This document shows, in pieces, positions 16,707-38,282 of a stretch of DNA of 45,902 nucleotides. Each line of letters starts with the position of its first letter. Positions within the stretch are counted from its first letter, which is position 1. Origin of the DNA: a virus; the IMG/VR virus record IMGVR_UViG_3300020152_000032, positions 1 through 45,902 of that record; one strand, 5' to 3'. Position numbers and translations under genes: made by a program. Under the pieces are notes generated by a model. That model did no database searches. It was not told the DNA's origin and was given only the letters and a program-made list of their open reading frames with translations.

Positions 16707-17089
16707 CGGCCTACCTGCACGAGCCCGCGTGGTTCGACGAGGTCCTGCCGAGCGTCGTCCCGGCCGGCTGGCGCGTGCTCGAGCGCCGACTCGACGGGGC
16801 CAAGTACCACCACGGCCTGCGCCGGCTGCTCGTGATCCTGTCTGCCGCGATCGAGCAGGACGGCCGCCGGTGGCTGCACCTCTCGTGCTCGCACGCCGAC
16901 CGGATCCCGAAGTGGAGCGAGCTGGTCGACGTCAAGGAGACGTTCCTCGGCCTCGAGCGGTACGCGTACAAGGTCGTTCCGCCGCGCTCGCGATACGTGA
17001 ACATCAACCCCCGGGTCCTGCACCTCTTCGCGTGCCTCGACGGCGAGCCGCCGCTGCCCGACTTCACGCATGGGGGCGAGACGCTGTGA
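16703..17089 (+). CDS. Conserved phage protein, DUF7694-like
   Basis: This 128-residue protein has RRWLHLSCSHADRIPKWSEL followed by VDVKETFLGLERYAYKVVPP and YVNINPRVLHLFACLDG. This order, W-x-H-L-S then P-x-W-x-E-L then K-E-x-F-x-G then hydrophobic-V-x-P-P and Y-V-N-I-x-P, is one I know from a widespread phage family (DUF7694), which has no characterised role. The GTG overlaps the upstream stop by 4 bp. Confidence 0.65.
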   Translation: MTAYLHEPAWFDEVLPSVVPAGWRVLERRLDGAKYHHGLRRLLVILSAAIEQDGRRWLHLSCSHADRIPKWSELVDVKETFLGLERYAYKVVPPRSRYVNINPRVLHLFACLDGEPPLPDFTHGGETL

Positions 17090-17403
17090 CGGGACGGACG
17101 ACAACCCCGAAGCTCAGCGCCCGGGAGCGGGCCAAGGCCGAGCTGATCGCTGGTGCGGCAGCCCGGCGCGTCGTGGCAACACTCGTCGCGCACGGGATCT
17201 TGCCGCGTCGCGCCCTGGAGGAGCGATGCGACAGCGAAAGAGAGGACGAGTCCTTGGACCCTACAGAGAACGAGCAGGCTGGCGGATCATCGTCGTCGAG
17301 AGAGACGGCGCGCGCCATCCTAGCCTCCATCCGAGCGAAGAGGAGGCGAACGACGTCGCCGCCGAGCTCCGAGCCCAGCTCGAGCTCGAGGAGACGACGG
17401 TGA
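17086..17403 (+). CDS. Hypothetical protein overlapping the integrase start
   Basis: A GTG overlapping the upstream stop starts VTGRTTTPKLSARERAKAEL, a plausible basic helical protein. From 17226 onward the frame lies inside the integrase gene and becomes Ser/Arg/Glu-rich, as expected for out-of-frame reading. Either a 105-residue protein overlaps the integrase by 178 bp, or a frameshift or truncation has removed its real end. Confidence 0.4.
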   Translation: MTGRTTTPKLSARERAKAELIAGAAARRVVATLVAHGILPRRALEERCDSEREDESLDPTENEQAGGSSSSRETARAILASIRAKRRRTTSPPSSEPSSSSRRRR

Positions 17404-18269
17404 GCGCGGCGATCAAGGAGTACGTCGCGTACCTCGCGACCGACAAGGGCCGCCGGGCGTCGAGCGTCGAACGCTGCGAGCGGCACCTGCACGCCATGAT
17501 GCCGGACGGGGAGGCCGTCCTCGCCGACATCGGGCCGAAGAACGCCACGGCGCTCTACGAGGCGATGCGCACGCGCAAGAGCGACAAGACGGGGCGGCCC
17601 CCGGCGGTCGACACCCAGCGCAACTGCCTCAACGAGGTGGGCACGTTTGCGCGGTGGGCGGTCCGTCGGCGCTACCTGCAGGCCGACCCGTTCGCGGGGA
17701 TCGAAGCCAAGGGCAAGCGCAGGCGGGGCAAGCCACAGCTCCGGCTCGACGAGGCCCGGACGCTGCTGTCGGTCACGCTGGCGGCGACCGAGGTCGGCGA
17801 CCGGGGCGCGCTGGTCGTCGCGCTGATCCTGCTCACGGGGTTCCGGGCGAGCGAGTCGGCGGGGCTCGAAGGTCGCGACGTCGACGACGACGGCCGGCTC
17901 CTCTGGATCGATGAGGGCAAGACCGACGCCGCCGCGCGCCGCATGGCGACGCCGGAGATGCTGGTCCCCGTCCTCAAGGAGATCGCGAAGGAGGGCGGCG
18001 CGCTGTGGCCGAAGACGGACCGCCACTGGGTCCACCGCCAGGTCGTCAAGTGGTGCAAACGGGCCGGCGTCAGCCGGGTCACCCCGCACGGCCTGCGCGG
18101 CACGCACTCGACGCTGGCCCAGGAGCACGGCGCCACCTCGCACGTGGTCGCCGCGGCCCTGGGTCACACGTCACACGTCGTCACCGAACGCCACTACACC
18201 GCGCTCGGCACCGCCGAGCAAGCCCAGGCGCGCCGCGCCCAGCGGCTCCTGACCGACGGCGGCAAGTAG
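17226..18269 (+). CDS. int: Tyrosine-family integrase
   Basis: This 347-residue integrase should recombine attP with a tRNA-Leu gene in the host. It has an N-terminal basic arm-binding segment (GWRIIVVERDGARHPSLHP), a core-binding SAM-like domain (about 58-150) and the catalytic domain with R207 (LTGFRASE), K232, H288 and R291 (PHGLRGTH), H314 (LGHTSHVV) and nucleophile Y324 (ERHYTAL). All catalytic positions are present. GGAGGAGCG directly precedes the ATG. The attP-like tRNA segment begins 80 bp after its stop, the usual arrangement for tRNA-targeting phages. No excisionase is certain; the HTH proteins at 1370 or 16174 are candidates. Confidence 0.9.
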   Translation: MRQRKRGRVLGPYRERAGWRIIVVERDGARHPSLHPSEEEANDVAAELRAQLELEETTVSAAIKEYVAYLATDKGRRASSVERCERHLHAMMPDGEAVLADIGPKNATALYEAMRTRKSDKTGRPPAVDTQRNCLNEVGTFARWAVRRRYLQADPFAGIEAKGKRRRGKPQLRLDEARTLLSVTLAATEVGDRGALVVALILLTGFRASESAGLEGRDVDDDGRLLWIDEGKTDAAARRMATPEMLVPVLKEIAKEGGALWPKTDRHWVHRQVVKWCKRAGVSRVTPHGLRGTHSTLAQEHGATSHVVAAALGHTSHVVTERHYTALGTAEQAQARRAQRLLTDGGK

Positions 18270-18349
18270 CCGATGATCCGATCGACCGATGCGCATTCCG
18301 CAGCCGTTCCGCTGGAAGGCGATTCGTTGATCGGGAGACGTCTAAGTCG

Positions 18350-18405
18350 TGCGAGAGGCCGGACTCGAACCGGCACGTCCGCGAGGACACTGGAACCTAA
18401 ATCCC
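18350..18405 (-). other. attP core: 3' half of a tRNA-Leu gene
   Basis: Read on the minus strand, this segment runs from an anticodon loop ATTTAGG (anticodon TAG) through the 3' anticodon stem TTCCAG, a class II variable arm GTCC-TCGC-GGAC, a perfect T arm GCCGG-TTCGAGT-CCGGC, the acceptor strand CTCTCGC and discriminator A. The following CGA replaces CCA, and the 5' half is absent, so this is not a working tRNA. Its position just past the integrase identifies it as the attP identity block that would restore the host tRNA-Leu after insertion. The gap 18270-18502 holds no gene. Confidence 0.85.
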
Positions 18406-18502
18406 GTAGTACCGAACTATCGCCTACACCTAACCACGCAAGAAATTCCGCAACGCGGCAAGGTCTCGTGCCCCTTCGACCGCTGCGGAACAGCGAGGCC
18501 CG

Positions 18503-20292: not shown

Positions 20293-20489
20293 CCGCGCCG
20301 GCGCTCCTGGTGCCGACGATCCGGGCGGCGCTCGAGGGCGCGGCCGACGGCGAGCCCTGCGCGACGTGCCATCAGCAGGCCTCCCAGGCGCTGTCGGGCC
20401 GGCTCCACCCGACCTGCGCGGCGCGGATCGCCCGCGGCTGGCTCGCCGCGCTGCTCGACCAGGTGGCGGAACGAGGAGACGGATCGTGA
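20289..20489 (+). CDS. Small cysteine-containing protein upstream of endolysin
   Basis: This 66-residue protein includes CATCHQQASQALSGRLHPTC, a C-x-x-C-H...H-x-x-C arrangement that could bind zinc. It is helical elsewhere. Its GTG overlaps the previous stop by 4 bp and its stop overlaps the endolysin start, so it is probably co-translated with it. Function unknown. Confidence 0.55.
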   Translation: MTAPALLVPTIRAALEGAADGEPCATCHQQASQALSGRLHPTCAARIARGWLAALLDQVAERGDGS

Positions 20490-21085
20490 GCTGGTTCTCG
20501 GATCTCTGGGCGCGGCTGCGGGGTCTGGCCCCGGCGGAGGCCGTCGAGGTCGTCGACACTCCCCCGATGCCGCAGCCGGCGCCGCCGGCCGACGAGCACG
20601 ACACGCAGCCGATGCGGAAGCTTGTCCCGGCGCCGCCACTCGACGCCGGCATGGTCTCCGAACACTTCTCGTGGGGCGAGTTCGGCTGCAAGGACGGCAC
20701 GCCGGTGCCGCCCGAGCTGCGCCCGAACGTCATCGAGCTCTGTCGCCACCTCGAGACGATCCGCGCCGAGCTGGGCGGCCGTGCGATGCGCGTGATCTCG
20801 GGCTTCCGCACCCCCGAGTGGAACGTCGGCAAGGGGGTGAGCCACTCCCAGCACAAGGTGGCGAAGGCCGCCGACATCCGCGTGCGCGGCGTCGCGCCGC
20901 AGGTGCTCCAGGCGACGATCCTGCGTCTCATCGCGAAGGAGCGGATCCCTGAGGGCGGGATCGGCCTCTACCTGCCGCGCCCGGAGTTGCCGCCCTCGGC
21001 GAAGTACCCCAAGGGCAGGCCCGAGCGGAAGGTCGGCTGGGTCCACTACGACATCCGGGGGCGGAAGGCCCGCTGGACCGGATAG
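20486..21085 (+). CDS. Endolysin, M15-type zinc D,D-peptidase
   Basis: This 199-residue protein is read as a peptidase M15 (subfamily A-like) enzyme that cuts peptide cross-links in the cell wall. A Pro-rich N-terminal part precedes FSWGEFGCKDGTPVPPELRP, then MRVISGFRTPEWN, the zinc motif SQHKVAKAADIRV (H123, D130) and WVHYDIRG (H187), the standard M15A ligand set. There is no signal peptide, so a holin must release it. GAGGAG lies upstream of the GTG. It ends the main accessory run on the plus strand, far from the membrane proteins on the minus strand. Confidence 0.85.
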   Translation: MSWFSDLWARLRGLAPAEAVEVVDTPPMPQPAPPADEHDTQPMRKLVPAPPLDAGMVSEHFSWGEFGCKDGTPVPPELRPNVIELCRHLETIRAELGGRAMRVISGFRTPEWNVGKGVSHSQHKVAKAADIRVRGVAPQVLQATILRLIAKERIPEGGIGLYLPRPELPPSAKYPKGRPERKVGWVHYDIRGRKARWTG

Positions 21086-22228: not shown

Positions 22229-22648
22229 CTAGAACGGGGCCGTGCGTCGCTCCTTGGGGCACCACCGGTACTGGCCGCGATCGAGCTTCTCGACTTCTCC
22301 GCGCTCGGCCATCTTCGCCAGGATCGTCGAGAGCGACCGGACGTTGGCGTGGCCGATCTCCTTGCCGATCTCGGTCACGCTGAACGCGCGACTGGGAGCG
22401 TTTCGCATCAGCGCACGCACCCGATCGGCGTAGGTGATCTCGCTGTTCTTGGCGTACGCGGACGCGACGTGGGTTACGAGAGCGCCCAGGGCGGCGGCCC
22501 CCGGCGTGACATCGGGCGAGGGCGTCTCGGCGGCTGGCTTGACGAGCATCTCGTCCAGCCGCTGCTCGAGCTGGGTGATCTCGTTGCGCAGCCGCACGAT
22601 CCTCGACGCGATTCGGATCGCCTCCTCCCGAGGTGACTCGCTCCCCAC
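22229..22648 (-). CDS. Winged-helix regulatory protein
   Basis: This 139-residue protein begins with a coiled-coil-like segment (EEAIRIASRIVRLRNEITQL), has a variable linker, and ends in a winged helix: YADRVRALMRNAPSRAFSVT, EIGKEIGHANVRSLSTILAK and GEVEKLDRGQYRWCP. The GTG start lies 154 bp from the divergent toxin-antitoxin operon. It is on the minus strand, convergent to the plus arm, and seems to be a stand-alone gene. A role as regulator is likely; the target is unknown. Confidence 0.65.
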   Translation of the reverse strand: MGSESPREEAIRIASRIVRLRNEITQLEQRLDEMLVKPAAETPSPDVTPGAAALGALVTHVASAYAKNSEITYADRVRALMRNAPSRAFSVTEIGKEIGHANVRSLSTILAKMAERGEVEKLDRGQYRWCPKERRTAPF

Positions 22649-22774
22649 ACGGCAAGAATCGCTCAGACTCAGCTCATCGTCAACCAGCTGAACATCCGCC
22701 CCACCGAAGCGTAAGCTGGCAAATCCTTTGCGGTCGGTCTGACCGGCCGGCGGCCCTGATTTAACCGTTGACTC

Positions 22775-22792
22775 TGTACCGTATAAGGTACA
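22775..22792. promoter_or_regulatory. Operator of the toxin-antitoxin operon
   Basis: TGTACC-GTATAA-GGTACA is a perfect 6-bp inverted repeat with a 6-bp spacer, 11 bp upstream of the toxin ATG. It covers a TATAAG that could serve as the -10, and TTGACT lies just upstream (22768-22773). HigA-type antitoxins bind such dyads to repress their own operon, so this is the expected autoregulatory site. Confidence 0.65.
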
Positions 22793-22802
22793 CAGTTAGT
22801 CC

Positions 22803-23138
22803 ATGGGGGTCGCGATTCAGGTTCGGTTCTTCCAGTCGGCGACCGGCGACACCCCCGCCCTCAACTTCATCCGCAACGAGCTGACCGCCGAGGAGCGCGT
22901 CATCGTCGGCGCCGATCTCCGCGCCGCCCAGGACGACTGGAACCCGGGCCCGCCGCTGACCGATGGCTTCGGCAAGGGCCTGTGGGAGATCCGCTCGAAG
23001 ACGCCGACTCGCCAGATCCGCCTCATGGTCTGCGTCCACGACAAGGTCCTCGTCGTCCTCCACGCCTTCATCAAGAAGACCCGGGCGACCCCGGCCGCCG
23101 ACGTCAAGATCGCCCGCGACCGGATGAAGCTGCTCTAG
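22803..23138 (+). CDS. higB: HigB-like toxin, RelE superfamily (phage Gp49-like)
   Basis: This 111-residue protein has the RelE/HigB Gp49-like pattern: DTPALNFIRNELTAEERVIV, LTDGFGKGLWEIRSK, RQIRLMVCVHDKVLVVLHAF, IKKTRATPAADVKIARDRM. The L-W-E-I-R-S-K and L-H-A-F-I-K-K-T segments are the most diagnostic. Such toxins cut mRNA on the ribosome. The toxin gene precedes the antitoxin, as is usual for higBA. It could stabilise the lysogen or limit other phages. Confidence 0.85.
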   Translation: MGVAIQVRFFQSATGDTPALNFIRNELTAEERVIVGADLRAAQDDWNPGPPLTDGFGKGLWEIRSKTPTRQIRLMVCVHDKVLVVLHAFIKKTRATPAADVKIARDRMKLL

Positions 23139-23162
23139 CCCCCCCTGCCCCGAGGTTCCACC

Positions 23163-23495
23163 ATGTCCAAGAAGCACCCCAACCCGCACATCGGAATCAG
23201 CCTCGACGAGTGGCTCGACGAAGACGGCCTCGCCGAGGAGGTCGATGCGCTCGTGCAGAAGCGCGCGGTCGCCGAGCAGCTCCGCGAGGCGATGGAGCGC
23301 CGTCACATCTCGGTCAACGCGATGGCGAAGCGCCTCGACACCAGCCGGACCCAGGTCAACCGGATCCTCGATCCGGCCGACGGCGGGACGTCCGTCTTCA
23401 CCCTGGCCCGGGCGGCGGCCGCAGTCGGTTGCCGCCTCGAGATGACGCTCGCCGAACCCGCGCGGAAGCCGGCGGCGAAGCCGAAGCGGCGCTAG
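23163..23495 (+). CDS. higA: HigA-like XRE antitoxin
   Basis: This 110-residue antitoxin has an N-terminal region (MSKKHPNPHIGISLDEWLDE) and an XRE helix-turn-helix: AEQLREAMERRHISVNAMAK, RLDTSRTQVNRILDPADGGT, then VFTLARAAAAVGCRLEMTLA. It should bind and silence the toxin and repress the operon at 22775-22792. It begins 24 bp after the toxin stop and ends 8 bp before the end of the minus-strand operon, with no clear terminator between. Confidence 0.85.
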   Translation: MSKKHPNPHIGISLDEWLDEDGLAEEVDALVQKRAVAEQLREAMERRHISVNAMAKRLDTSRTQVNRILDPADGGTSVFTLARAAAAVGCRLEMTLAEPARKPAAKPKRR

Positions 23496-23502
23496 GCCGA
23501 CC

Positions 23503-23682
23503 CTACCGAACCCGCCCCGCGTTCTCCGCGATCAGCCAGAGCAGCCCAACGAAGAACGCGATCCGCCCCGCCTCGGCGATGCGGGACGTCGTGGGCGTCG
23601 GCGGCGAGCTGACACCCGGGAGGAGGAGGTAGATCGCCAGGCCGCCGACGGCGGTCAGGAACGGGACGAGGGGCAGGTTCAC
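23503..23682 (-). CDS. 59-residue two-pass membrane protein, holin candidate
   Basis: Read from a GTG that overlaps the upstream stop (GTGA), it has two hydrophobic segments: LPLVPFLTAVGGLAIYLLLP and RIAFFVGLLWLIAEN, joined by a short Ser/Pro/Thr turn. Small size, two spans and the last place in the late operon fit a holin or pinholin. There is no sequence match to a named holin family. Confidence 0.5.
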   Translation of the reverse strand: MNLPLVPFLTAVGGLAIYLLLPGVSSPPTPTTSRIAEAGRIAFFVGLLWLIAENAGRVR

Positions 23683-23990
23683 TGGGTGTCCTTCCGTTCG
23701 ATGCCCGCGAGCTCGTCCCGCGGCCCGGGCAGCCGGACGATGAGCTCGTCGAGCTTGAGCTGGATCGCGCGCGTGTCGCGGTCCTGCGCGTGCTGGAGCA
23801 GGAAGACCATCAGGAACGTGACGATCGTGGTCCCGGTGTTGATCACCAGCTGCCACGCCTCGGACCACCGGAAGAACGGGCCGCTCACCGCCCAGGCGAG
23901 GACGACCGCGAACGCGATCGCCGCGGCGCGCGCCGTGCCGGTGACGTGGGCTGCCCAGGTGGCCAGGCGGTCGAACGCGCCACGGGTCAC
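23679..23990 (-). CDS. Low-affinity iron permease family-like membrane protein
   Basis: This 103-residue protein matches the bacterial PF04120 pattern that I know: TGTARAAAIAFAVVLAWAVS, GPFFRWSEAWQLVINTGTTI, VTFLMVFLLQHAQDRDTRAI, QLKLDELIVR. Two membrane segments lie at about 20-40 and 50-66, with a conserved Q-L-K-L-D-E-L tail. In bacteria the family is poorly characterised, and the iron-permease name comes from fungal members. Here it lies among small membrane proteins at the end of the late operon, so it may act as a holin-like pore or alter the lysogen envelope. It overlaps both neighbours by 4 bp. Confidence 0.7.
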   Translation of the reverse strand: MTRGAFDRLATWAAHVTGTARAAAIAFAVVLAWAVSGPFFRWSEAWQLVINTGTTIVTFLMVFLLQHAQDRDTRAIQLKLDELIVRLPGPRDELAGIERKDTQ

Positions 23991-24226
23991 CCGAACAGGC
24001 TCCCGCGCGCTGGCGCTCCGTCGATCGTGAGGCCCTCGGCCAGGCGGTCGGCGCCGATCGACAGGCAGGTGTCGAGGCAGAGGACGACCGCGGCCCCGAC
24101 GCCTTGGACGGGCCGCACCTTGAGCAGCGCGAAGCCGGGCGGCGGCAGCTCGGCCGCCTCCCCGCGCGCCGTCCGGCCGCAGAGGTCGCAGGAGAAGATG
24201 TGGACGGTCGCATCCTCGATCGTCAT
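23987..24226 (-). CDS. Hypothetical zinc-knuckle protein
   Basis: This 79-residue protein begins MTIEDATVHIFSCDLCGRTA and carries CDLCGR plus a later VVLCLDTCLSIGADRL, four cysteines in two pairs that could bind zinc. Short proteins of the V-x-x-F-x-C-D-x-C-G-R pattern are common and uncharacterised in phages. The ATG at 24226 lies 4 bp after the preceding stop. Confidence 0.55.
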   Translation of the reverse strand: MTIEDATVHIFSCDLCGRTARGEAAELPPPGFALLKVRPVQGVGAAVVLCLDTCLSIGADRLAEGLTIDGAPARGSLFG

Positions 24227-24230
24227 CGCC

Positions 24231-24461
24231 TCAGTCCTCCGGCTCGCCGTTCTCGTCTGGGCCGACCAGGACCCCCGGCAGGGGGGCATCCGCCCCGTCG
24301 AGCATGACGATCGTGAAGCGGCCGACGCCGTGCGCCGGCAGGTCGACCGAGGCGGCGACGATCGTGCCGCGCTCGCACTCGTCGGCCATGTAGCGGAGCG
24401 CGCGGCACCACGCCGCCTTCTCGACCTTGATCGTTGCCGCGCCCTCTCGCGCCGGTGCCAT
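24231..24461 (-). CDS. Hypothetical 76-residue protein
   Basis: The protein begins MAPAREGAATIKVEKAAWCR and continues with ALRYMADECERGTIVAAS and GRFTIVMLDGADAPLPGVLV. An alpha-beta pattern and two cysteines are visible, with no membrane segment. The ATG shares a base with the upstream stop (TGATG). No family is recognised. Confidence 0.5.
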   Translation of the reverse strand: MAPAREGAATIKVEKAAWCRALRYMADECERGTIVAASVDLPAHGVGRFTIVMLDGADAPLPGVLVGPDENGEPED

Positions 24462-24748
24462 CAGAACCTCATCCGCAGTCCGGTCGTGGCCTTGTACTCG
24501 AGCCCCGGCGTCGCGCCCCATCCGTAGCCGGCGGAGGCCTCGCCGAACAGGGCCGTCGAGGGGCTGATCCGGTGGGTGTAGTCGAGGACGCCGCCGGCCG
24601 AGCCCGCGTCGCGCGTGCCGCGGACGTAGGCCCCGAGGTCGAGCTGGCCGCGGCGCGGCGCGAGCTTCTCGGCGGCGTCGAGCCGCCCACGGATCACCGG
24701 CGCGACCTCCGGCGGCACGATCGGCGCCGCCGGAGCCGTCGTCGTCAC
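24461..24748 (-). CDS. Small beta-rich protein with outer-membrane-like C-terminus
   Basis: This 95-residue protein has a Pro-rich start and then amphipathic strands: RRGQLDLGAYVRGTRDAG, GVLDYTHRISPSTALFGEAS and TPGLEYKATTGLRMRF. The alternation and the terminal Phe resemble the closing strands of outer-membrane beta-barrels, although no signal peptide is present. It could be a spanin-like or envelope-interacting piece, or a fragment of a barrel protein. The GTG overlaps the upstream stop by 4 bp. Confidence 0.45.
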   Translation of the reverse strand: MTTTAPAAPIVPPEVAPVIRGRLDAAEKLAPRRGQLDLGAYVRGTRDAGSAGGVLDYTHRISPSTALFGEASAGYGWGATPGLEYKATTGLRMRF

Positions 24749-25215
24749 GCCGGCCGGCGAGGGATCGGAGGGATCACCCCCGAGGCCGGCGCCAGCGTCG
24801 TGCCGCCGGCCGGCGCGGCAGCGGCCGGCGGCGCGTCGGCCAGCTTGATCGCCTTGACGGTCGCCTCGACCTTGCTCTGGAGCCAGCTGTCGACGTCGAC
24901 GCCGAGCACGCGGCCGAGCCGGGCGAGGCCCTTGCGGCCGAGGTTCGCCTTGGCCGCAGCGACGGCCTTGGCCAGCGCGTTGGCCTTCTCCTCCGGGGTG
25001 AGGCTGCCGTCCTCGCGCCCCTTGCGGAGCTCGTCGACGTAGGTCTGGGCGACCTCGAGGACCGCGTCCCGGGTCTCCCCGTAGCCACGCTCGAGGATCG
25101 CGCGGGCCGTCGCGTTCTTGATCAAGACCCAGACGTATCGGGTCAGGAAGCCCCCCAGCACCGTGGCGACGAAGACCAGGGCGCGCATCCCGTACTCGGC
25201 GAACAGCTCGATCAT
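24745..25215 (-). CDS. Holin-like protein with one N-terminal membrane segment
   Basis: This 156-residue protein opens MIELFAEYGMRALVFVATVL with a membrane span at about 10-33, followed by a long charged helical domain (ARAILERGYGETRDAVLEVA) and GSLTPEEKANALAKAVAAAK. The layout (one N-terminal span and a helical tail including a T-P-E-E-K-A-x-A-L segment) resembles LLH-type phage holins. It lies in the late operon's end, where lysis genes are expected. An inner-membrane spanin cannot be excluded. Confidence 0.5.
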   Translation of the reverse strand: MIELFAEYGMRALVFVATVLGGFLTRYVWVLIKNATARAILERGYGETRDAVLEVAQTYVDELRKGREDGSLTPEEKANALAKAVAAAKANLGRKGLARLGRVLGVDVDSWLQSKVEATVKAIKLADAPPAAAAPAGGTTLAPASGVIPPIPRRPA

Positions 25216-25228
25216 CGGCTTCTCCTGG

Positions 25229-25675
25229 TCATCGGGGCCGCCTGCGGCCCGGTGCGTCCCGCGGCGACTCGGCCGCCTTGATCGCGTCGGCGATCTCCTG
25301 GCGTAGCTCGGCGCGCAGGTCCCGCAGCGCGAGCTCGAGCGCGCGGACCCTGGCCTCGAGCTCCCTGGCCTGCGTCGTGGCTTCGACGCGGACCTCGGCC
25401 AGGTCGCCCTTGCTGGCCCGGTCCGTTCCCATCACGCACGGCTTGAGCAGTGCGGCGGCCGAGATCGCCACCGCCAGCACCGCGACCGCGGTCGGCCGCC
25501 GGCCCTTGTCGGCCGTGACCGCCTCGAGCAGCCCGTCGAGGCGCGTCTGGGTCACCGCCACGTCGGTCTTGAGCTGGCCGATGTCCTCGAGCGTCTCGCT
25601 CCGGGTGCGCGCGCGCGGCGGCGCTAGGACCGCCGCCAGCGTGCCCGGCGGAGCGTCCCGCTGCCCCTCGCTCAT
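25229..25675 (-). CDS. Membrane-anchored coiled-coil protein
   Basis: This 148-residue protein has a cytoplasmic-like N-terminal helix (TLEDIGQLKTDVAVTQTRLD), one membrane segment at about 60-80 (TAVAVLAVAISAAALLKPCV), then a coiled coil (ATTQARELEARVRALELALR) and a basic tail. The coiled coil next to a membrane span recalls i-spanins such as Rz, but the span lies further in than usual. The ATG overlaps the gp46 stop by 4 bp. Confidence 0.5.
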   Translation of the reverse strand: MSEGQRDAPPGTLAAVLAPPRARTRSETLEDIGQLKTDVAVTQTRLDGLLEAVTADKGRRPTAVAVLAVAISAAALLKPCVMGTDRASKGDLAEVRVEATTQARELEARVRALELALRDLRAELRQEIADAIKAAESPRDAPGRRRPR

Positions 25676-26148
25676 CCGGCATCGGTCCCCGCCGCCATCG
25701 CGTCCCAGGGCTGCGCGAAGAGGTACCGCGCCGGATCACCGGTCGGGCGGTAGACCTCGACCCGATGCAGCATCCACGCGCCCTGGAACGAGACCGACAC
25801 GTCGATCCGCTCGGTGACCCGGTCCGCGATGAGCCAGGCCACCGCCTCCCGGACGTACTGCTCGGCGAGCGGCAGGACGTCCGGGGTGCGCACCGAGCGG
25901 TCGAGCAGCCAGAGGCGAGACCCGAACCGGTCCCCGGGGACCTCGGCGAACTCGTCCGCCCACCAACCGCGACGGTCCCCGTCGTCCGACGGCAGTCGGT
26001 CGTCGTCCTCGGCCCGCCGGTCGGTGAAGAGCGAGAGGAACAGCGACGTGCCGAGCCCGTCGTCGGCCGCGAGGTCGTCCAACGACGTGGCGATGACCAG
26101 GTCGGCGTTGCCCCTTTCGGGACTCCAGACGAGCGCCAGGTCGCCCAC
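25672..26148 (-). CDS. Mu gp46-like baseplate protein
   Basis: This 158-residue protein has the Mu GP46 family core: LVIATSLDDLAADDGLGTSL, FLSLFTDRRAEDDDRLP, GDRRGWWADEF and GSRLWLLDRSV, then AVAWLIADRVTERIDVSVSF. In Mu, gp46 lies between gp45 and gp47 and belongs to the baseplate. Here it follows the fibre gene, and the gp45-gp47 gap is only 45 bp. The start is a GTG abutting a CCCCTAGGGG palindrome, and the ribosome site is weak. Confidence 0.8.
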   Translation of the reverse strand: MGDLALVWSPERGNADLVIATSLDDLAADDGLGTSLFLSLFTDRRAEDDDRLPSDDGDRRGWWADEFAEVPGDRFGSRLWLLDRSVRTPDVLPLAEQYVREAVAWLIADRVTERIDVSVSFQGAWMLHRVEVYRPTGDPARYLFAQPWDAMAAGTDAG

Positions 26149-26196
26149 CCCCTAGGGGAGGATCACGGCTTAGTGCCGGGGTCAAGCCCGACCCCG
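26149..26196. promoter_or_regulatory. Palindrome and hairpin between fibre and gp46 genes
   Basis: In a 49-bp gap, CCCCTAGGGG (26149-26158) is a perfect 10-bp palindrome touching the gp46 start. A 7-bp stem, CGGGGTC (26177-26183) and GACCCCG (26190-26196), with a 6-nt loop follows the fibre stop. No U-run is present. It could slow translation or attenuate transcription before gp46, at a point where all other genes nearly touch. Confidence 0.4.
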
Positions 26197-26197
26197 C

Positions 26198-26755
26198 CTA
26201 GGGGTCGCCCGGATTCGGGTAGTCGTAGACCATGGCGATCTTGTGCAGCGCGTGAAACGTCGTCGGGAGAGTGATGTGGACGCTTAGAGTCAAGTCCGAG
26301 CTCGCGACCTGGCCGCCGCCGCTGATCGTGATGTCGACGGCCTGCACGTTCCCGGAGCTGACCCCTGTGCTCGTGTAGGAGCCGAGCGACGACGGCGCGC
26401 CCGGGGCGGCGCCTGCAGCGACCGACTGCTTGAACACCTCGACTGTGAAGGCGCTCGGCGCCTCGTCGATCGCCCGGACGAGAACGTGTTTCAGGCGGCG
26501 GCCGACCTTGACCGGCAGCTTGATCGCGAGCGGGTCGGTCATCGTGCCGATGTAGCGCGACGCGCCGCTCGCGGTGTCGCCGGTGAGGCCGCCACCGCCG
26601 TACGCCGACGGAAGCACCGGGAACGAGACCTCCTCCTCGATGTCCCCGTGGAACCTCCCGTCGATGATCTTGTCCTGGATGTCGTTGAGGTCGTCCCCGT
26701 TGACCTCGGAGGTCCCATTGACGTAGGTGTGATTTCTCGAGTAGGGCAGCGCCAT
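26198..26755 (-). CDS. Putative tail fibre or baseplate spike protein
   Basis: This 185-residue protein begins MALPYSRNHTYVNGTSEVNG with DDLNDIQDKIIDG, an N-terminal phrase typical of phage tail fibre proteins. A beta-rich domain follows (LKHVLVRAIDEAPSAFTVEV, VQAVDITISGGGQV, TLSVHITLPTTF). It comes right after the gp48-like gene, the normal place of the fibre gene in Mu-like tails. It is short, so it may be the distal tip or a simple fibre, with the 600-residue Ig-like protein sharing receptor binding. Confidence 0.6.
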   Translation of the reverse strand: MALPYSRNHTYVNGTSEVNGDDLNDIQDKIIDGRFHGDIEEEVSFPVLPSAYGGGGLTGDTASGASRYIGTMTDPLAIKLPVKVGRRLKHVLVRAIDEAPSAFTVEVFKQSVAAGAAPGAPSSLGSYTSTGVSSGNVQAVDITISGGGQVASSDLTLSVHITLPTTFHALHKIAMVYDYPNPGDP

Positions 26756-26757: not shown

Positions 26758-27411
26758 TCAGACCACCGGGTCGGGGGCAAGGAGGTCGCGCCCGCAGATC
26801 GAGTGCGGGTCGCCGCACTTGAACCGCTTGGACTCGAACACCCGGCCTCGTGTGTGTGAGGGCTTGATGCGATCGACGAGGGCCTGTGCGTCGGCCACGC
26901 TGTAGCTGCCCGGGGCGCCGGGGTCGCGGTAGATGTAGAAGCGAAAGATCGCGGAGTCGTCGTCCATCGCGACCGCTTGAGCACGGGTCCGCTCGATCAC
27001 CTCGACGTCCTCGGCGGCGAGCCCCAGGATCGGGGCGAGCGCCACCTTGAAGTCGACCGGCCGGAACCGTTGCCGACGGACCAGCAACGCCACGACCCGC
27101 CCGCGGCGCTCGGCCAGCGAGCCCTCGCTGGCGAGTCCGAGCGCACGCTCGAAGTCCGGCAGCAACTCGGTCGTCGTGAGCGGGTTGGCCTCGTCGAGCA
27201 GTGTGCGCGCGCGTGCATCGATCCTGGCGAGCTCGTCCGCGGCGGCTGCGAGGGTCCGCGACAGCTCGCTGTCCGGGTCGAGATTCCAGAGCCGGCCGGG
27301 CGGCAGGAGCGCCTTCAGGACGCGCGTCCAGACGGTAGCGGTCAGGGGGCCCGAGGACGGCGCCTCGGCAGCCGGCTCGAGCAGCGTGAACTCGATGACG
27401 GGGTTGCTCAC
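26758..27411 (-). CDS. Mu gp48-like tail protein (DUF2313, YmfQ)
   Basis: This 217-residue protein matches the Mu gp48/YmfQ family: VWTRVLKALLPPGRLWNLDP, SRTLAAAADELARIDARART, DEANPLTTTELLPDFERALG and a C-terminal CGDPHSICGRDLL. It is a baseplate component in Mu-type and P2-like tails. The GTG at 27411 overlaps the upstream stop by 4 bp (GTGA); a longer frame upstream is unlikely. Its usual neighbour gp47 is separated from it by the Ig-like protein gene. Confidence 0.8.
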   Translation of the reverse strand: MSNPVIEFTLLEPAAEAPSSGPLTATVWTRVLKALLPPGRLWNLDPDSELSRTLAAAADELARIDARARTLLDEANPLTTTELLPDFERALGLASEGSLAERRGRVVALLVRRQRFRPVDFKVALAPILGLAAEDVEVIERTRAQAVAMDDDSAIFRFYIYRDPGAPGSYSVADAQALVDRIKPSHTRGRVFESKRFKCGDPHSICGRDLLAPDPVV

Positions 27412-29210
27412 GGCAGCACGAGCGTCGCGGTGTTTCCGCGGGCGTCCCGGACGATGAACTCGAGCGCGGGACGGCCGAGCCGCGGGTGCCACCCGCCGTC
27501 GCGCAGGATCGTGAAGCGGTGCCGGCGCCCACCGTCGAGGACCTCGCGGGCCGCGACCGAGCTCTGGAAGGCAGGTCCGAAGATGACGCCCGAGTGCACC
27601 GGGTCCATGTGGCCGGATCGGTAGCGCGCGAGGACCGCCGCGACCGACAGCGCGGTCTCGTCCGCCACCTCCACGACGATCGGCGTCTCCGGCCCGAGCT
27701 GCCGGCTGGTCGGGGAGATGAGCGTGATCGTCGGGCCGGTCTCGTCCTCCGGCACCGGCTCGAACGGCGTCGTGTACTCGAACTCCTCAGTCGTCACCCG
27801 CCCACCAGCGTCGACCATGGTCATGCGGATGAGCACGCTCGCCGAGGGCAGGCCGCCCGCGCGCTCCAGCGAGAAGGCGATCCCGTTCGGGTGTTCCGTG
27901 TCGGCGATCGAGCCGTCGACCCAGGGCGCGGAGAAGCCGTCCGCGTCGTAGATCGTCTCGGTCACCGCGCCGCCGACGTAGTCGGCCCCGTAGGTGGCAG
28001 TGACCGTCGTCTCGACGATGTCGTCGTCGGCATCCGCCCCCTGGAGCTCGATGGGGTCGTCGACCGCGATGCCCCCCTCGGCGGTCACCGCGACGATGAC
28101 CGGCGAGCTCGGGACGAAGTAGCCCGTCACGGTGTAGCTGATCGTCACATCCGCTCGGTTGCCCTGCTTGTCGGTGGCGGACGCGTAGATCGTCGCGCCC
28201 GCCGAGGGCATGCCGGTCCCGTCGCGCTTGAAGACGATCCGCTTGCCCTTGGCGATGTCGGAGATCGCATTCGTCTCCCCCTGGTACTTCGGGCCGAAGC
28301 CGGTGGCCGAGCGGTAGATCGTGTCCTCGGTCCCGTCGTCGTGCTCGACGACGACCTCGATGTCGGCGATGCCGTCGCCGTAGTCGTCGACGAAATCGAT
28401 CTGGGCCGAATCCTCGGCGCCAACCTCTGATGCACTGGCCGGGGTCGGCGTGATCGTCGGAGCTACCGAGTCGAACTGCGGCGGCTTGATCGCGAGGGTC
28501 ATCATCGCGGTCGCCTGGTTGTTACTGCGGGTGGTGGTGGTGCCGCTCACGACGCCGGCAGTCCACTTCTCTCCATAGACGACGTAGTGGGCGCCGCCCT
28601 GCGTGCCCGTGTTCACGCCCACCGCAACACCCACGTCCAGGAGCTCCGTCGGACCGAGGTCGAGCGATGCATTCGTGACGGTCGAAAGCGTGTTCGACGG
28701 GGACGCCGGCACCGTCGCGAAATGGATGATCAGGCAGTTGTCGACCGTGGTCGTGAGGCCGGGCAGCGTGATGTTCGTCGTGCCCGTCGGGGAGGTTGCG
28801 ACCGCGGAGGCGTGGATCGCGCCTCGGGGATCCGACGACCGGAACGGACCGCGAATGCAGTGCATCCGAGCGATGACGTGATCGCCCGGATCGGCGATCG
28901 TCGGGCCCGTCGCGCTTGCCGGGTCCGGCGGCGCGTACCGCACAAAGATGCTCAGGCACGTGTCCTGGGCGGCGGTGCCTGAGACCTCGACCACGGGCGA
29001 GTTCGCCAGCTCGACGAACCCCTGCGCGTCCGACAGGACCGCGCCCGCCTCCTGGGTCTCGACGACAAGGATGCAGAGGTCTCCTTCACGCGCCACGTTC
29101 GCCGTGGCGGGAGCCTTCGGATAGTCGATGGGCCCAACAGGGCCTGTGCCGCTGAAGAACACGCCGGCAGAGCGGTACGAGGGGGTGTCGTAGGCGGGGA
29201 GCGAGTGCAT
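27408..29210 (-). CDS. Large Ig-like tail or adhesion protein
   Basis: This 600-residue protein has an N-terminal beta domain (about 1-245), which begins MHSLPAYDTPSYRSAG, has GDLCILVVE and ends in AMMTLAIKPPQ, as in phage proteins that bind surfaces or virions. Three related modules follow at about 248-365, 366-490 and 491-600, each with a D-D/E start, a GFGPKY or GFSAPW turn, a basic strand (IVFKRDG, FSLERAG, FTILRDG), a P-S-A motif, and a D-x-x-G-x-x-T/A end. They look like Ig/cadherin-type repeats. The gene is inserted between gp47 and gp48 and probably encodes a tail-surface adhesin. Confidence 0.6.
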   Translation of the reverse strand: MHSLPAYDTPSYRSAGVFFSGTGPVGPIDYPKAPATANVAREGDLCILVVETQEAGAVLSDAQGFVELANSPVVEVSGTAAQDTCLSIFVRYAPPDPASATGPTIADPGDHVIARMHCIRGPFRSSDPRGAIHASAVATSPTGTTNITLPGLTTTVDNCLIIHFATVPASPSNTLSTVTNASLDLGPTELLDVGVAVGVNTGTQGGAHYVVYGEKWTAGVVSGTTTTRSNNQATAMMTLAIKPPQFDSVAPTITPTPASASEVGAEDSAQIDFVDDYGDGIADIEVVVEHDDGTEDTIYRSATGFGPKYQGETNAISDIAKGKRIVFKRDGTGMPSAGATIYASATDKQGNRADVTISYTVTGYFVPSSPVIVAVTAEGGIAVDDPIELQGADADDDIVETTVTATYGADYVGGAVTETIYDADGFSAPWVDGSIADTEHPNGIAFSLERAGGLPSASVLIRMTMVDAGGRVTTEEFEYTTPFEPVPEDETGPTITLISPTSRQLGPETPIVVEVADETALSVAAVLARYRSGHMDPVHSGVIFGPAFQSSVAAREVLDGGRRHRFTILRDGGWHPRLGRPALEFIVRDARGNTATLVLP

Positions 29211-29227
29211 CGATCAGGCCGCCCCTG

Positions 29228-30304
29228 TCATGTCCATGTGATCGTCCCCAGCACGGCGAGCTCCCCGGCCGCCGGCACCACGTCGGCAGCGGGGACCGTC
29301 AGAGTGAAGTCCTCGACACCCTCGGCGACGCCGATCGCGACGAGCATCTTCGACAGCTTGATCGTGCCCTTGCCCGCGCCATCGCCCGGCTCGGCCTCTC
29401 GAAACAGGAGGTCCGCGAGCTCGGCGGAGACCGCGTTCTTCGCCTCCGTGGTGTTCGGGGTCACCGCGATCGTGAACGCCACAGCCAGGGGCGTCGGCGC
29501 CACAGCCGTGACCTCGGCCGTGACCGGCCGCTCCGCGTCGAGCGCAGCCTGCACCAGGGCGACCGCTGCGCCGTCCGGGAAGATGCCGCCCTCCTGCTCG
29601 TCCAGCACGAAGCGGACGACGACGGTGCCTGGGCCGTTCTCGAGCGGGAACACCCAGGCCCGCGTCACCCCGGGGACCGCGAGCGCCCACGCCTTGTAGT
29701 CCTGATCGGCGCCGCCCTGCGCCGGCTCCTGCCAGCGAAGCAGCAGCCGGCTCAACAGGTTGCTCATGGTCCCCTCGTCGAGTCCGCCAGCGATGCCATC
29801 TCCGGCGTCAACAGTGGCGGCTGAGTCGACCCCGTCGAGCGGGCTCTCGAAGGTGAGCGTCTCGCCGGCGGCCAGGTTGCCGGCGGTGCCTGCTTCGACC
29901 GATTCCACCGAGATCGTGGCCTCGCCGCCGTCGATCTCCGCGTCGGCGGTGACCCGGTAGGTCGCGCCGTTCGAGCCTTGGAGGATGGAGTCCTCGGGGA
30001 TCGGGCGGCCGTCCGTGCCGGTCGCCGTGGCTGTGCCTGAGGCGAAGGTGGCCGCCCCGGGGTAGAGGCCGAAAAGGGCCGCCCATCGGCGGACGAACTC
30101 CGCCGCCATCTCGTTGCTCGGGACGATCTGCTTCGAGATCCAGTCGAGGTGGCCGTGGGCGAGGTGGACTGCTCCTGCCCAGGCCGTTCCGAGCACGTCG
30201 ACCATCGCCCGGCGGACCAGGGGCCCGGCGAGGCCGAGCCGCGAGCGGAGATCGCTGCGAACGCGCTCGACCAGCGCGGACAGCGAAGGGCGCTCGAACG
30301 GCAC
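29228..30304 (-). CDS. Baseplate J-like protein (Mu gp47/P2 gpJ)
   Basis: This 358-residue protein is the baseplate wedge protein of Mu and P2 tails. It starts MPFERPSLSALVERVRSDLR, then HGHLDWISKQIVPSNEMAAE, the J core ATISVESVEAGTAGNLAAGE, then RLLLRWQEPAQGGADQDYKA and WALAVPGVTRAWVFP, and a C-terminal wing. The length is normal for the family. It lies 18 bp upstream of the Ig-like protein and 42 bp downstream of gp45, so no gp46 gene is between them. Confidence 0.85.
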   Translation of the reverse strand: MPFERPSLSALVERVRSDLRSRLGLAGPLVRRAMVDVLGTAWAGAVHLAHGHLDWISKQIVPSNEMAAEFVRRWAALFGLYPGAATFASGTATATGTDGRPIPEDSILQGSNGATYRVTADAEIDGGEATISVESVEAGTAGNLAAGETLTFESPLDGVDSAATVDAGDGIAGGLDEGTMSNLLSRLLLRWQEPAQGGADQDYKAWALAVPGVTRAWVFPLENGPGTVVVRFVLDEQEGGIFPDGAAVALVQAALDAERPVTAEVTAVAPTPLAVAFTIAVTPNTTEAKNAVSAELADLLFREAEPGDGAGKGTIKLSKMLVAIGVAEGVEDFTLTVPAADVVPAAGELAVLGTITWT

Positions 30305-30345
30305 CTACCCCCCAGGATCACGGGCCCAGGGCACTGTCAAGGCGG

Positions 30346-30900
30346 TCACTCGGCCTTGAGCTTGCTCGTGCCGATCGGCCAGCTGGGGAAGAGGTCGCTG
30401 GTCAGCTTCGTCCTGAGGGCTGCGCCCCCATCGTTGGCCGAGGGGGTCCATGCGGTGATCGCCGCCTTGAGGGCGTCGAGGTCTGCCTTGGTCGCTAGCG
30501 GAACGGCCGAGCCGCCGGACGTCACCTCGATCGCGCCGTCCGCCTTGAGCCGCACGACCGCCCCGAAGCTGTTGTAGAGGCCGGACTCCCCCTTGAGCCA
30601 GCCGACCGGGCGACGGCGGCGGTCGTCGACCACGACCACCAGCGGGTGGCCACGGTCCCCGTTCGGGAAGACAGCGACCGCCTCGGCGCCCTCCTCCGGG
30701 ACGCTCTTGAAGCCGAAGGGCTGGAAGTGCTCGCCGTCGTCGACGAGCTCGCCCTCGAGGACGCCAAGCTGGACGATCTGGCGCTTGAGCGAGTCGTCGA
30801 CGCGCTTGACGACGCCGCGGGCGATCGAGTTCGCCACCCGAACCTTGAGCGGCTCGATCCAGCGCCCAAGCTGGGCGAACAGGTCGCGCGAGACGCCCAT
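30346..30900 (-). CDS. Mu gp45-like baseplate spike protein
   Basis: This 184-residue protein matches the Mu Gp45/baseplate assembly V family: VKRVDDSLKRQIVQLGVLEG, HFQPFGFKSVPEEGAEAVAV, FPNGDRGHPLVVVVDDRR, then a C-terminal repeat-like beta region (VRLKADGAIEVTSGG). Such proteins form the trimeric membrane-piercing spike. The C-terminal helical tail has KADLDALKAAITAW. The ATG shares a base with the gpP stop (TGATG). Confidence 0.85.
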   Translation of the reverse strand: MGVSRDLFAQLGRWIEPLKVRVANSIARGVVKRVDDSLKRQIVQLGVLEGELVDDGEHFQPFGFKSVPEEGAEAVAVFPNGDRGHPLVVVVDDRRRRPVGWLKGESGLYNSFGAVVRLKADGAIEVTSGGSAVPLATKADLDALKAAITAWTPSANDGGAALRTKLTSDLFPSWPIGTSKLKAE

Positions 30901-31970
30901 CAGCGCGCCCCCCCGGCGAGTTCCTTCCACACCCCCGACGCGGCGGCAACCACCGCCTTCGGCTCTGGCGTGAACGCATCCGGTCGCACGAGCCGCAGCT
31001 GCGTCACCTCCCCGGTGTCGTTGACCAGGTGCTCGACGCTCGAGATCAGCATGTCGCCCTCGATACCCACGGCCGTCGCGCGAACCGGGACCCTTGCGTT
31101 GACCGGCCAGAGCGCGCCGCTCGGCTGCTTCCAGCCGAGCACCATGCAGGTCATGGTCTCGGCCCGCGCGGCGCTGACTCGAGCGTCCCAGTCGGCCCGG
31201 CGGCGCGCGGATTCGACCGTGACGCCCTGGTCCGGCCGGATGATGCGCACCCGGTTGGCTCGACGCACGCCGGCGTCCGTGGCGAACGCGCGAGGGGCCG
31301 TCACCGGCCCGTAGGCCTCGTCCGTGCCGCCGACCTGGGTCACGACGACGTACCGACTGAAACGGTCTGTGGCGTCGAACTCGGCGGCGGCGGTGAGTAG
31401 GTTCTCGCCCAGCACGAGAGGGGCGGCCCGCGCCGCGCCCGCCCGGGTGAGCGTGAGTCCCCCGTGCCCGTCGCTCACTACCAGGACGCCGGCGATCTGG
31501 GCGGCACGCTGGATCGCAGCGAAGGCCGTCTCGCCGGGGCTCACGACGAACTTCTTCGGCGGGGCCGGCAGCCGCAGGCCAGGCTGTAGCGAGACCTCGA
31601 TGCCGAACGGCTGCGCTAGCCGCTTCGCCACCGCCAGGGTGTCGACGTTGCGGAACATCCACTGGTCGAGGTTGGCCGAGCAGTCGACCAGGACCGCCGC
31701 CTTGTCGCGCCCCGAGTAGGACAGCGTCCGCGAATCGGGTGAGACCGCCACCGTGCGGCGGTCCACGAACCCGTCCACGACAACGACGCCGTCGATCTCG
31801 ACGCGGCACGCGTCCTCCTCGGCGATCGGCAGCGCGCGCTCCTCGTCGGACCAGCGGTCGACCACATCAAGATCGAACGACCCCACGGCGGACTCGATCG
31901 ACCGGGTGCATCGGATGCTGAGCCACCCTCCGTGCGATCGCCCGTTGACGAGGAGACGAAGATCACTCAC
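30900..31970 (-). CDS. Mu gp44 (P)-like baseplate hub protein
   Basis: This 356-residue protein starts at a GTG overlapping the circularisation gene by 8 bp. It reads VSDLRLLVNGRSHGGWLSIR, then SVGSFDLDV-like strands, YSGRDKAAVLVDCSAN, and FVVSPGETAFAAIQRAAQIA, the pattern of the Mu P/gp44 baseplate protein related to the gpD hub. It should form the hub that holds the gp45 spike. The order N, P, gp45 is as in Mu. Confidence 0.85.
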   Translation of the reverse strand: MSDLRLLVNGRSHGGWLSIRCTRSIESAVGSFDLDVVDRWSDEERALPIAEEDACRVEIDGVVVVDGFVDRRTVAVSPDSRTLSYSGRDKAAVLVDCSANLDQWMFRNVDTLAVAKRLAQPFGIEVSLQPGLRLPAPPKKFVVSPGETAFAAIQRAAQIAGVLVVSDGHGGLTLTRAGAARAAPLVLGENLLTAAAEFDATDRFSRYVVVTQVGGTDEAYGPVTAPRAFATDAGVRRANRVRIIRPDQGVTVESARRRADWDARVSAARAETMTCMVLGWKQPSGALWPVNARVPVRATAVGIEGDMLISSVEHLVNDTGEVTQLRLVRPDAFTPEPKAVVAAASGVWKELAGGAR

Positions 31971-33186
31971 TGGAGAGCACCAAGAGCGAGCCCGAGAGCA
32001 CGGCAGGGTGCCGGACGCCGTTGCGGGCGATGATGTCGCTCTCTTGGTCGACCGACCCGTAGAGCTGGTAGGCCAGGACGAGCGAGGGAAGAGCGACGGG
32101 CCGCTCAATCGTGCGGATGCGCCTCAGCACGGCCTCGCCGGGCACGGCCCGAACGAGGTCGGCCCTGAGCTGGACCAGCGCCGGGTAGGCGTCGTCCGAC
32201 GCGAGGCTGGCCTGCTCGTCAAGAAGCTCGGCGACCGCGTTGCGGAGGTAGACCGCCTCATCGTTCGAGGCGAACGAAGCGGTCGCGGCCAGCCGAGCGG
32301 CGGCGATCGCCAGCATCCGCCGCAGGGCGGCCGCCAGCGCGATCTGCGCGGCCCGCTCACGTTCACGGGAGGGCGTGAGCTCGATCGCCAGCGGCCCCAA
32401 GTCCACCGCGTAGGCGTCGATCAGCGCCCGGAGGACAGGGACCGGGGCTGCAACCAGGGTCTCAGGGATCCCCGCCAGGACAGCCTCGAAGCCGGCCAGG
32501 GCGTCAGCGGGGCTGCGGACCAGGGATGCCGCATGGAGGCTCAGGAGGCGCGTCCGCGCCGTCAGGCTTGCCAGCTCCTGCGTCGATCGGATGACCGGCG
32601 AGAGCGCGGACGCCATGGCCTCGGACATGCTCTCGACGGCGACCTCGAGGCTCGCCATGGCGTAGCTCGGCAGGTCCTCGACGTCGTAGTCGGCGGCCAG
32701 GTCGGCGGCGGAGGCCGCCGCCGCTGCGTCGGCGCTGACCTCCAGCTGCGCCCGCGGGTCGGACTGCTCGGTGGCCTCGACCGTCTGGTTCGGCGCCTCG
32801 GTGAACTCCACCGCGATCCGCGCCATGCCCCCTTCGGACGAGGACTCGCGCGTGGTGAATGGGCCGCAGCTCGCCTTGAGGACGCCATGGTAAGGGTGGA
32901 CGAGCTCGCCCGGGCCGGCCACGTCCTCGAGCGCCACGAGCAGCGCGTCGCGCTGGGCGAGGTAGTCGTCGCCGATCAGGTACGCCTCGACCGGGAAGGT
33001 GCGGGCCCGTCGGCCGTTGTCGTGGACGTAGGGGTCGTCCCGACCGGGAAACTCGCTGACGACGATCCGCCGGCCGCCGGTGCGGTCAGCCGCCTCGACG
33101 AAGAACGGGACGCCGCGGAAGGAGCCGCCGACGAAGACCCGGCCGTCGGGGAGCGTGACCCTCCTCAGCTTCTCGAGCCAGGACAC
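31963..33186 (-). CDS. Mu gpN-like DNA circularisation/tail protein
   Basis: This 407-residue protein belongs to the Mu N (gp43) family. MSWLEKLRRVTLPDGRVFVG, GGSFRGVPFFVEAADRTGGR, RIVVSEFPGRDDPYVHDNGR and YLIGDDYLAQRDALLVALED are the conserved N-terminal blocks, followed by GELVHPYHG. The name refers to an early genetic role, but the family is a tail-baseplate component. The start is GTG, 4 bp after the tape-measure stop. The C-terminal half is Ala-rich and helical. Confidence 0.85.
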   Translation of the reverse strand: MSWLEKLRRVTLPDGRVFVGGSFRGVPFFVEAADRTGGRRIVVSEFPGRDDPYVHDNGRRARTFPVEAYLIGDDYLAQRDALLVALEDVAGPGELVHPYHGVLKASCGPFTTRESSSEGGMARIAVEFTEAPNQTVEATEQSDPRAQLEVSADAAAAASAADLAADYDVEDLPSYAMASLEVAVESMSEAMASALSPVIRSTQELASLTARTRLLSLHAASLVRSPADALAGFEAVLAGIPETLVAAPVPVLRALIDAYAVDLGPLAIELTPSRERERAAQIALAAALRRMLAIAAARLAATASFASNDEAVYLRNAVAELLDEQASLASDDAYPALVQLRADLVRAVPGEAVLRRIRTIERPVALPSLVLAYQLYGSVDQESDIIARNGVRHPAVLSGSLLVLSSE

Positions 33187-33190
33187 TCCC

Positions 33191-34783: not shown

Positions 34784-34902
34784 CAGCCCACCTCGCGGAG
34801 CGGCGCCCGCGCGCGCCGCAGGTACTCGAGGGCTCGCTGCACCGTGTTCTCCGGCGTGAACTCGTGTCCGCGCTTGCAGTGGGTCTTAACGGGCGGAGCC
34901 AC
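34783..34902 (-). CDS. 39-residue zinc-knuckle-like peptide before the tape measure gene
   Basis: A GTG with a very strong AGGAGGTGA 4 bp upstream opens a short frame that ends in TGATG at the tape-measure start. The peptide, VAPPVKTHCKRGHEFTPENT followed by a basic helix (VQRALEYLRRARAPLREVG), opens like the first zinc knuckle of HNH endonucleases (C-x-x-G-H-x-x-x-x-x-N) but lacks the rest. Its start overlaps the 3' end of the frameshifted gp42 part in another frame. It may be an HNH remnant or a small structural peptide. Confidence 0.55.
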   Translation of the reverse strand: MAPPVKTHCKRGHEFTPENTVQRALEYLRRARAPLREVG

Positions 34903-35280
34903 CGTTCACCTCCTGGGCGCAGTCGAACCAGAACCTGAGATCTTCGACGTCCATCGCCCAGAGCTCGGACGGCTGGAAATGGAGCGTGGCCGCGATGATG
35001 GCTATTGCTCGGCGCCAGTCCCCAGGCACGCTCGCAAAAAACGCATGGCGATGACGACGACCTCGCGGGCGTCATCCTGATCGAGCTTGCCGAGTATGCC
35101 GGTCGGCACGGCGCAGAGGCGAGCCGCGACGAGCATGAGACCCTCCGCCGTCACCGTCTCGACGCTGACGCCCTTGATGTCCTCGAGGCGGCCGCGGCGG
35201 AACGAGAGCTGATCGATCGGCCCGTCGGGCCCTTCGATCGGACGCTTGAGCTTGACGACCTGCCGTTCCTCCTCGTCCAT
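34886..35280 (-). CDS. gp41-gp42 frameshift fusion, tail assembly chaperone
   Basis: The gp41-like frame ends at 35002, but a -1 slip on TTTTTTG (35041-35035) continues into a frame that reads ASVPGDWRRAIAIIAATLHF, QPSELWAMDVEDLRFWFDCA, QEVNGGSAR and stops at 34886. The extension of about 49 residues matches GpE/gp42-type proteins (P-S-E-L/W...D-L-x-x-W). The fusion would be about 131 residues. Both products are known to guide tape-measure folding in Mu- and P2-type tails. The extension has no own start codon in a good context. Confidence 0.75.
35002..35280 (-). CDS. Mu gp41-like tail assembly chaperone (short form)
   Basis: This 92-residue protein reads MDEEERQVVKLKRPIEGPDG, PIDQLSFRRGRLEDIKGVSV, then VAARLCAVPTGILGKLDQDD and REVVVIAMRFLRACLG. 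The K-L-x-x-P-I...L-x-x-L-x-x-R-x-x-R pattern is that of the phage tail assembly chaperones E/41/14. It is the unshifted product and ends 33 bp after the slippery heptamer. The ATG shares a base with the tube stop (TGATG). Confidence 0.8.
   Translation of the reverse strand: MDEEERQVVKLKRPIEGPDGPIDQLSFRRGRLEDIKGVSVETVTAEGLMLVAARLCAVPTGILGKLDQDDAREVVVIAMRFLRACLGTGAEQ
35035..35041 (-). promoter_or_regulatory. Programmed -1 frameshift site TTTTTTG
   Basis: In the gp41 frame the codons are CG(T TTT TTG) CGA, so the heptamer T-TTT-TTG lies exactly in the X-XXY-YYZ register needed for tandem -1 slippage. The -1 frame is open for 49 codons after it and encodes a recognisable gp42/GpE-like protein. 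Homopolymer runs are rare in this GC-rich genome, which makes the site stand out. Confidence 0.75.
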
Positions 35281-35642: not shown

Positions 35643-35651
35643 GCTGCCCTC

Positions 35652-37127: not shown

Positions 37128-37130
37128 GGG

Positions 37131-38280: not shown

Positions 38281-38282
38281 CG

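Follow-up and report, generated by a model that had tools for sequence, protein, structure and literature searches.

A two-TM membrane protein of the PF04120 family encoded near the late-operon end in a temperate myophage

Gene content of the late operon

The window, i.e. the whole stretch of 45,902 nucleotides that we analysed, is an IMG/VR virus record (IMGVR_UViG_3300020152_000032) with a GC content of 72%. Its phage is a temperate myophage with a Mu-like tail, sheaths related to its own being found in cultured Bordetella phages (49%) and in Mu (37%). The late operon, which includes a protease-capsid fusion and two hub proteins (PHROG), lies on the minus strand, and the features relevant here are:

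26758-45284, minus strand: rest of the late operon with terminase, portal, protease-capsid, sheath, tube, tape measure, hub, baseplate J and wedge (PHROG)
25672-26148, minus strand: GP46-like baseplate protein (PF07409, 6.6e-35; phrog_180, 4.7e-39)
25229-25675, minus strand: 148-aa protein with one central TM segment and a coiled-coil C-terminus (sequence, PHROG scan, hydropathy)
24745-25215, minus strand: holin candidate with one N-terminal TM segment and a long amphipathic C-terminus (PHROG, hydropathy)
24461-24748, minus strand: 95-aa protein with an outer-membrane beta-barrel-like C-terminus (DUF481, E 0.0055, below the cut-off; final residue aromatic F)
24231-24521, minus strand: small soluble ORF of the late operon (ORF list, Pfam and PHROG scans)
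23987-24289, minus strand: 100-aa ORF with a CxxC motif, directly upstream of the PF04120 gene (sequence)
23679-23990, minus strand: PF04120-family two-TM membrane protein of 103 aa with a GTG start (Pfam, PHROG, AlphaFold2)
23503-23682, minus strand: final gene of the operon, encoding 59 aa with two hydrophobic stretches (sequence, hydropathy)
22803-23495, plus strand: Gp49/DUF891 and HTH genes resembling a toxin-antitoxin pair, convergent with the operon end (PF05973, 4.3e-15; HTH matches)
20366-21085, plus strand: M15_3 peptidase, possible endolysin, outside the late operon (PF08291, 2.4e-8)

The ORF that the first-pass annotation placed at 23679-23990 is present there on the minus strand, and the motif it quoted matches letter for letter; the product reads MTRGAFDRLATWAAHVTGTARAAAIAFAVVLAWAVSGPFFRWSEAWQLVINTGTTIVTFLMVFLLQHAQDRDTRAIQLKLDELIVRLPGPRDELAGIERKDTQ. 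The gene is the last but one of the late operon and translationally coupled, as the interlocked run described in that annotation was recovered in the form of 4-base GTGA start/stop overlaps with both neighbours, 23987-24289 and 23503-23682. The overlap points to probable co-expression of the PF04120 gene with the operon. No sigma-70-like promoter was found in 22600-26200, and the single terminator-like site (23094-23081) is at chance level.

The run had also been described as one of small membrane proteins, which holds for part of it: hydropathy gave two TM segments each in 23503-23682 and the PF04120 product and one each in 24745-25215 and 25229-25675, but none in 24231-24521 and 24461-24748 and one borderline segment in 23987-24289. 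Likewise, its designation as the lysis end agrees with a PHROG holin match inside the run, whereas the M15 peptidase is encoded outside the operon on the opposite strand. The holin match belongs to 24745-25215 (phrog_13712, holin, E 6.6e-13; phrog_36209, holin, E 1e-3), four genes upstream of the PF04120 gene. The 59-aa protein is holin-like by size only, with no match in Pfam and a best PHROG match of only E 0.027. No family match was obtained in Pfam or PHROG for the product of 23987-24289, for which an in-frame ATG near 24226 is the likelier start; the probable start of 24231-24521 is the ATG at 24461, overlapping the preceding stop.

Several further observations concern the same region. 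The product of 24461-24748 resembles the strands at the C-terminus of outer-membrane beta-barrels (a weak match to DUF481), which is odd in a phage, and 27408-29210, in the interval between baseplate J and wedge, encodes a 600-aa late protein without PHROG or Pfam match. The GP46 gene follows the wedge gene in the window and lies between the hub/V and baseplate J genes in syntenic relatives (L256-L263), a difference that amounts to a local rearrangement. The plus strand also carries an integrase and Dam; the integrase gene (17070-18427) ends about 80 bases before a minus-strand tRNA-Leu, and this site is likely an attachment site or a carried tRNA.

Family membership and predicted structure

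A profile search confirmed the resemblance to the bacterial iron permease family, the protein matching PF04120 'Iron_permease' with E 3e-39 and 134.2 bits, compared with a curated cut-off of 25 bits for the whole-protein score. The alignment pairs protein residues 6-100 with positions 1-95 of the 128-position model. In the PHROG scan residues 4-85 matched phrog_3485 'membrane protein' (E 7.4e-24), which is categorised as moron, auxiliary metabolic gene and host takeover, and of which the window gene is a further member, with no difference found. Both matches are far above chance and family membership is sound. The bacterial PF04120/COG5478 'low affinity iron permease family protein' is of the same length class and has the same core, whereas the window protein is phage-borne, encoded in a late operon and has a C-terminal tail short of the full model.

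The conserved core W..G..F..(S)(D/E).WQL.INT.TT..TF.MVF..Q..Q.R is present, as seen in an alignment of 38 sequences and a per-column survey of 119. TM2 and the stretches on either side of it hardly vary, G18, W33, N51, T52, T54, T58, F59, Q66 and Q69 being found in almost all of the 119 sequences, a conservation that is partly enforced and thus overstated, as the patterns used to fetch the sequences derive from the same core.

The AlphaFold2 model, built with 38 homologues, has a pLDDT of 85 and contains helices 3-16, 20-39, 44-86 and 92-100, with TM1 corresponding to helix 20-39 and TM2 lying within the single long helix 44-86; hydropathy likewise gave two TM segments. The charges suggest an N-in/C-in hairpin with both ends cytoplasmic, and the protein is probably oligomeric via its near-invariant polar TM2. 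By helical moment the polar face of TM2 is not significant (about 19% of shuffles were equally high), and we therefore claim no pore. A Foldseek search with the model found no fold match in PDB or BFVD, and a profile search of PDB sequences returned a single match at chance level (E 0.23). In DUF1003 (PF06210), as in PF04120, two TM helices precede a QNR motif, after which comes a long helix with a KLD-like motif at its end, but DUF1003 differs in that about 20 additional residues separate the QNR motif from the KLD motif. An hhalign comparison of the two families covered 85 columns with a probability of 43% and a single-comparison E of 2.5e-4, so that the possible link lies below significance for homology and is only suggestive.

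Distribution and genomic position of the family

According to the first-pass annotation the family is rarely noted in phages. This applies to the literature but not to the gene itself, which was found in 173 mycobacteriophages and at 57 IMG/VR loci, has a dedicated PHROG and is listed as COG5478 'low-affinity iron permease family protein' in the table of a Sinorhizobium phiLM21-like prophage (PMC12429752). PF04120 in phages is thus already known, though unstudied. Among the 57 loci some (L013, L015, L023) resemble host flanks, two of these adjoining an NhaA-like antiporter as read from the sequence; all 35 IMG/VR carriers searched match phrog_3485. The cultured-phage matches, namely the 173 Mycobacterium phages and five weak ones in Streptomyces phages, were obtained with an IMG/VR relative as query, and a made-up consensus-like query recovered the same mycobacteriophages less well. 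With the window protein itself tblastn against cultured phages gave no match, apparently because its N-terminal third is lost to low-complexity masking; against plasmids only residues 36 onward of this protein aligned.

The membrane protein of Bxz1-type mycobacteriophages (Asterius gp111, ArcherS7 gp107) scores 71.5 bits against PF04120, above the cut-off, and like the window gene its gene is part of a late/structural module. It differs in being distant, with 36.7% identity to an IMG/VR member and a very long tree branch, and in lying amid head genes, far from the lysis genes.

In bacteria relatives occur at no fewer than 576 places, identity being 48-65% in the best 80 of these at least 576 chromosomal copies, and 248 plasmids carry relatives with identities, among the matches listed, of up to 67% over 62% of the query. 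In a tree of 119 rows the window gene pairs with that of the phage at L003 (support 99/91). The phage and bacterial labels change 12 times, with at least five changes forced by well-supported branches, a count that would drop if some of the 'viral' rows are host flanks, and 0% of the bootstrap trees separate the labels; as the tree rests on 110 columns, single placements are weak. It is reasonable to regard the family as mainly bacterial and repeatedly exchanged between bacteria and phages, which supports the earlier proposal that the gene was recruited from bacteria. In two phage groups dN/dS is 0.06-0.48, and the gene is therefore kept for function under purifying selection.

The genomic place of the gene was compared across carriers. 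In five phages (L022, L025, L028, L031, L034) it lies at the virion operon's end, behind a large internal virion protein; in four (L014, L029, L040, L041) it directly precedes the terminase large subunit, and in L038 it stands one gene before the terminase, with a probable small subunit between. It is located before the portal in L020 and L033, behind a virion structural protein in L016, downstream of tail-fibre genes in L004 and among head genes in the Bxz1-type mycobacteriophages. The gene thus lies within the structural module, or at its border, in several unrelated phage groups. Terminase and methyltransferase were commonest among 74 tallied neighbours, with portal and virion proteins also represented, and no lysis family was found in the 25 commonest neighbour families. 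In Asterius the annotated lysin A, holin and lysin B map to 142.8-145.7 kb and the PF04120 gene to 56.5 kb, 86 kb apart. Cell-wall hydrolase genes lie about 25 kb from it in G020, 17 kb in G024 and 3.3 kb in the jumbo record G031; the search of carriers with M15_3, phage lysozyme and Hydrolase_2 yielded few endolysins, making lysis adjacency testable in few phages. At about 28.3-32.3 kb of G031 (L052) the PF04120 gene, a DUF5675 protein and the cell-wall hydrolase fall within 4 kb.

Relatives of the window phage itself were collected with the terminase (174 relatives, 80 kept) and the baseplate J protein (four); searches with the sheath and the holin candidate 24745-25215 returned none. A profile search detected PF04120 in none of the 46 records linked to the window phage through terminase or baseplate J, many of which are fragments so that some absences may be false; the same search detects it in the window and in two mycobacteriophages. 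Four of the 46 share the head-tail gene order and have no PF04120 gene. This shows that the gene is sporadic among phages with the same core genome, not that it is absent from each. Bordetella phage PBb001, which has the closest cultured sheath, carries a lysozyme cassette after its tail genes and no PF04120 gene.

Possible roles of the protein

The first-pass annotation had proposed that the protein may serve as a holin or alter envelope ion flow. Class II holins have two TM segments in N-in/C-in topology, and the protein resembles them in size, in its predicted topology with both ends cytoplasmic and in late expression as judged by position. As a holin, antiholin or pinholin-like protein its hairpin would oligomerise and open or restrain a lesion, partnered by 24745-25215 and the 59-aa protein, and this is consistent with its place at the end of the late operon, its translational coupling to the two-TM 59-aa gene and the holin candidate within the same run. 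Moreover, in L004, L020 and L033 the gene adjoins other tiny TM proteins, and the virion operon of the L022 phage encodes no clear two-TM protein other than its product. In contrast to class II holins, however, the window protein matches no holin profile in Pfam or PHROG, and its gene does not adjoin an endolysin gene, M15 (20366-21085) being on the opposite strand in the window and lysin A, holin and lysin B being far off in Asterius, as are the hydrolases in G020 and G024. Many bacterial chromosomes retain the same sequence, and a protein that makes lytic holes would be unlikely there; by profile, 24745-25215 is the better holin. The annotation had itself named absence from close relatives and a neighbouring holin as findings that would speak against its proposal, and this is largely what we observed (0/46; 24745-25215). 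The holin claim is not supported, and we consider a role as holin or lysis partner unlikely.

Taken literally, the Pfam and COG family name would imply that the protein carries Fe2+ or a different divalent metal through the inner membrane and so supplies the host in late infection; in yeast, the namesake FET4 acts as a low-affinity permease for metals. The protein has only two TM helices, no conserved His or Cys was found in the 119-sequence survey, and the only conserved charged residues, D72, K79, E82 and E98, are all outside the TM segments. The bacterial neighbours have no iron-uptake theme (DUF892 ferritin-like in 4 of 115, the rest diverse). Oxidative stress up-regulates the mycobacterial member MAB_2517c together with iron genes (PMC8945036), a stress induction that is not evidence of transport. 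There is no sequence evidence in favour of iron transport, which we regard as very improbable. Scarcely better placed is a membrane-active virion or DNA-injection protein packaged with head or tail: in the L022 group the gene comes directly after those for internal virion proteins, and in mycobacteriophages it lies amid head genes, but its place varies between phage groups, relatives that share the head and tail lack it, and the bacterial copies have no virion.

Distant lysis genes elsewhere, a better holin in the run, conservation in bacteria and absence from relatives therefore favour a late accessory protein. We think it probable, with the reservation that a site at the operon end, close to a holin candidate and next to a tiny protein with two TM segments, also fits a holin/antiholin partner, that the gene encodes an accessory (moron) inner-membrane protein that modifies the host membrane and is neither a lytic hole-former nor an iron importer. 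The gene would have been acquired from the bacterial PF04120/COG5478 pool as an accessory late gene. Its product would be a small inner-membrane protein with an N-terminal amphipathic helix and a hairpin of two TM segments joined by a very short external loop, TM2 extending into a long cytoplasmic helix and both termini remaining in the cytoplasm. Late in infection it may alter the inner membrane of the infected cell, and we infer both this role and its mechanism; conceivable options are a block on DNA entry by a second phage or the tuning of ion leak or envelope stress, as bacterial copies may do. We found no paper on the function of bacterial or phage PF04120 members. That the family as a whole comprises small oligomeric membrane channels or leak proteins, repeatedly captured by phages and expressed late to set membrane energetics for lysis timing or exclusion, is a speculative extension that we consider quite unlikely.

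A common bacterial family with a confident but putative name has thus been captured several times by unrelated phages, and the cultured Bixzunavirus copies offer a tractable route to its function. 'Iron permease' should not pass into phage annotation as a function, nor should the PF04120 gene be named the holin. Just upstream of the PF04120 gene, L004 (7507-7683), L020 (594-770) and L033 (3180-3356) encode a 58-aa protein that has no match in PHROG (L004 and L020 tested) or Pfam (L004 tested) and is rich in Gly and Tyr, with two TM segments.
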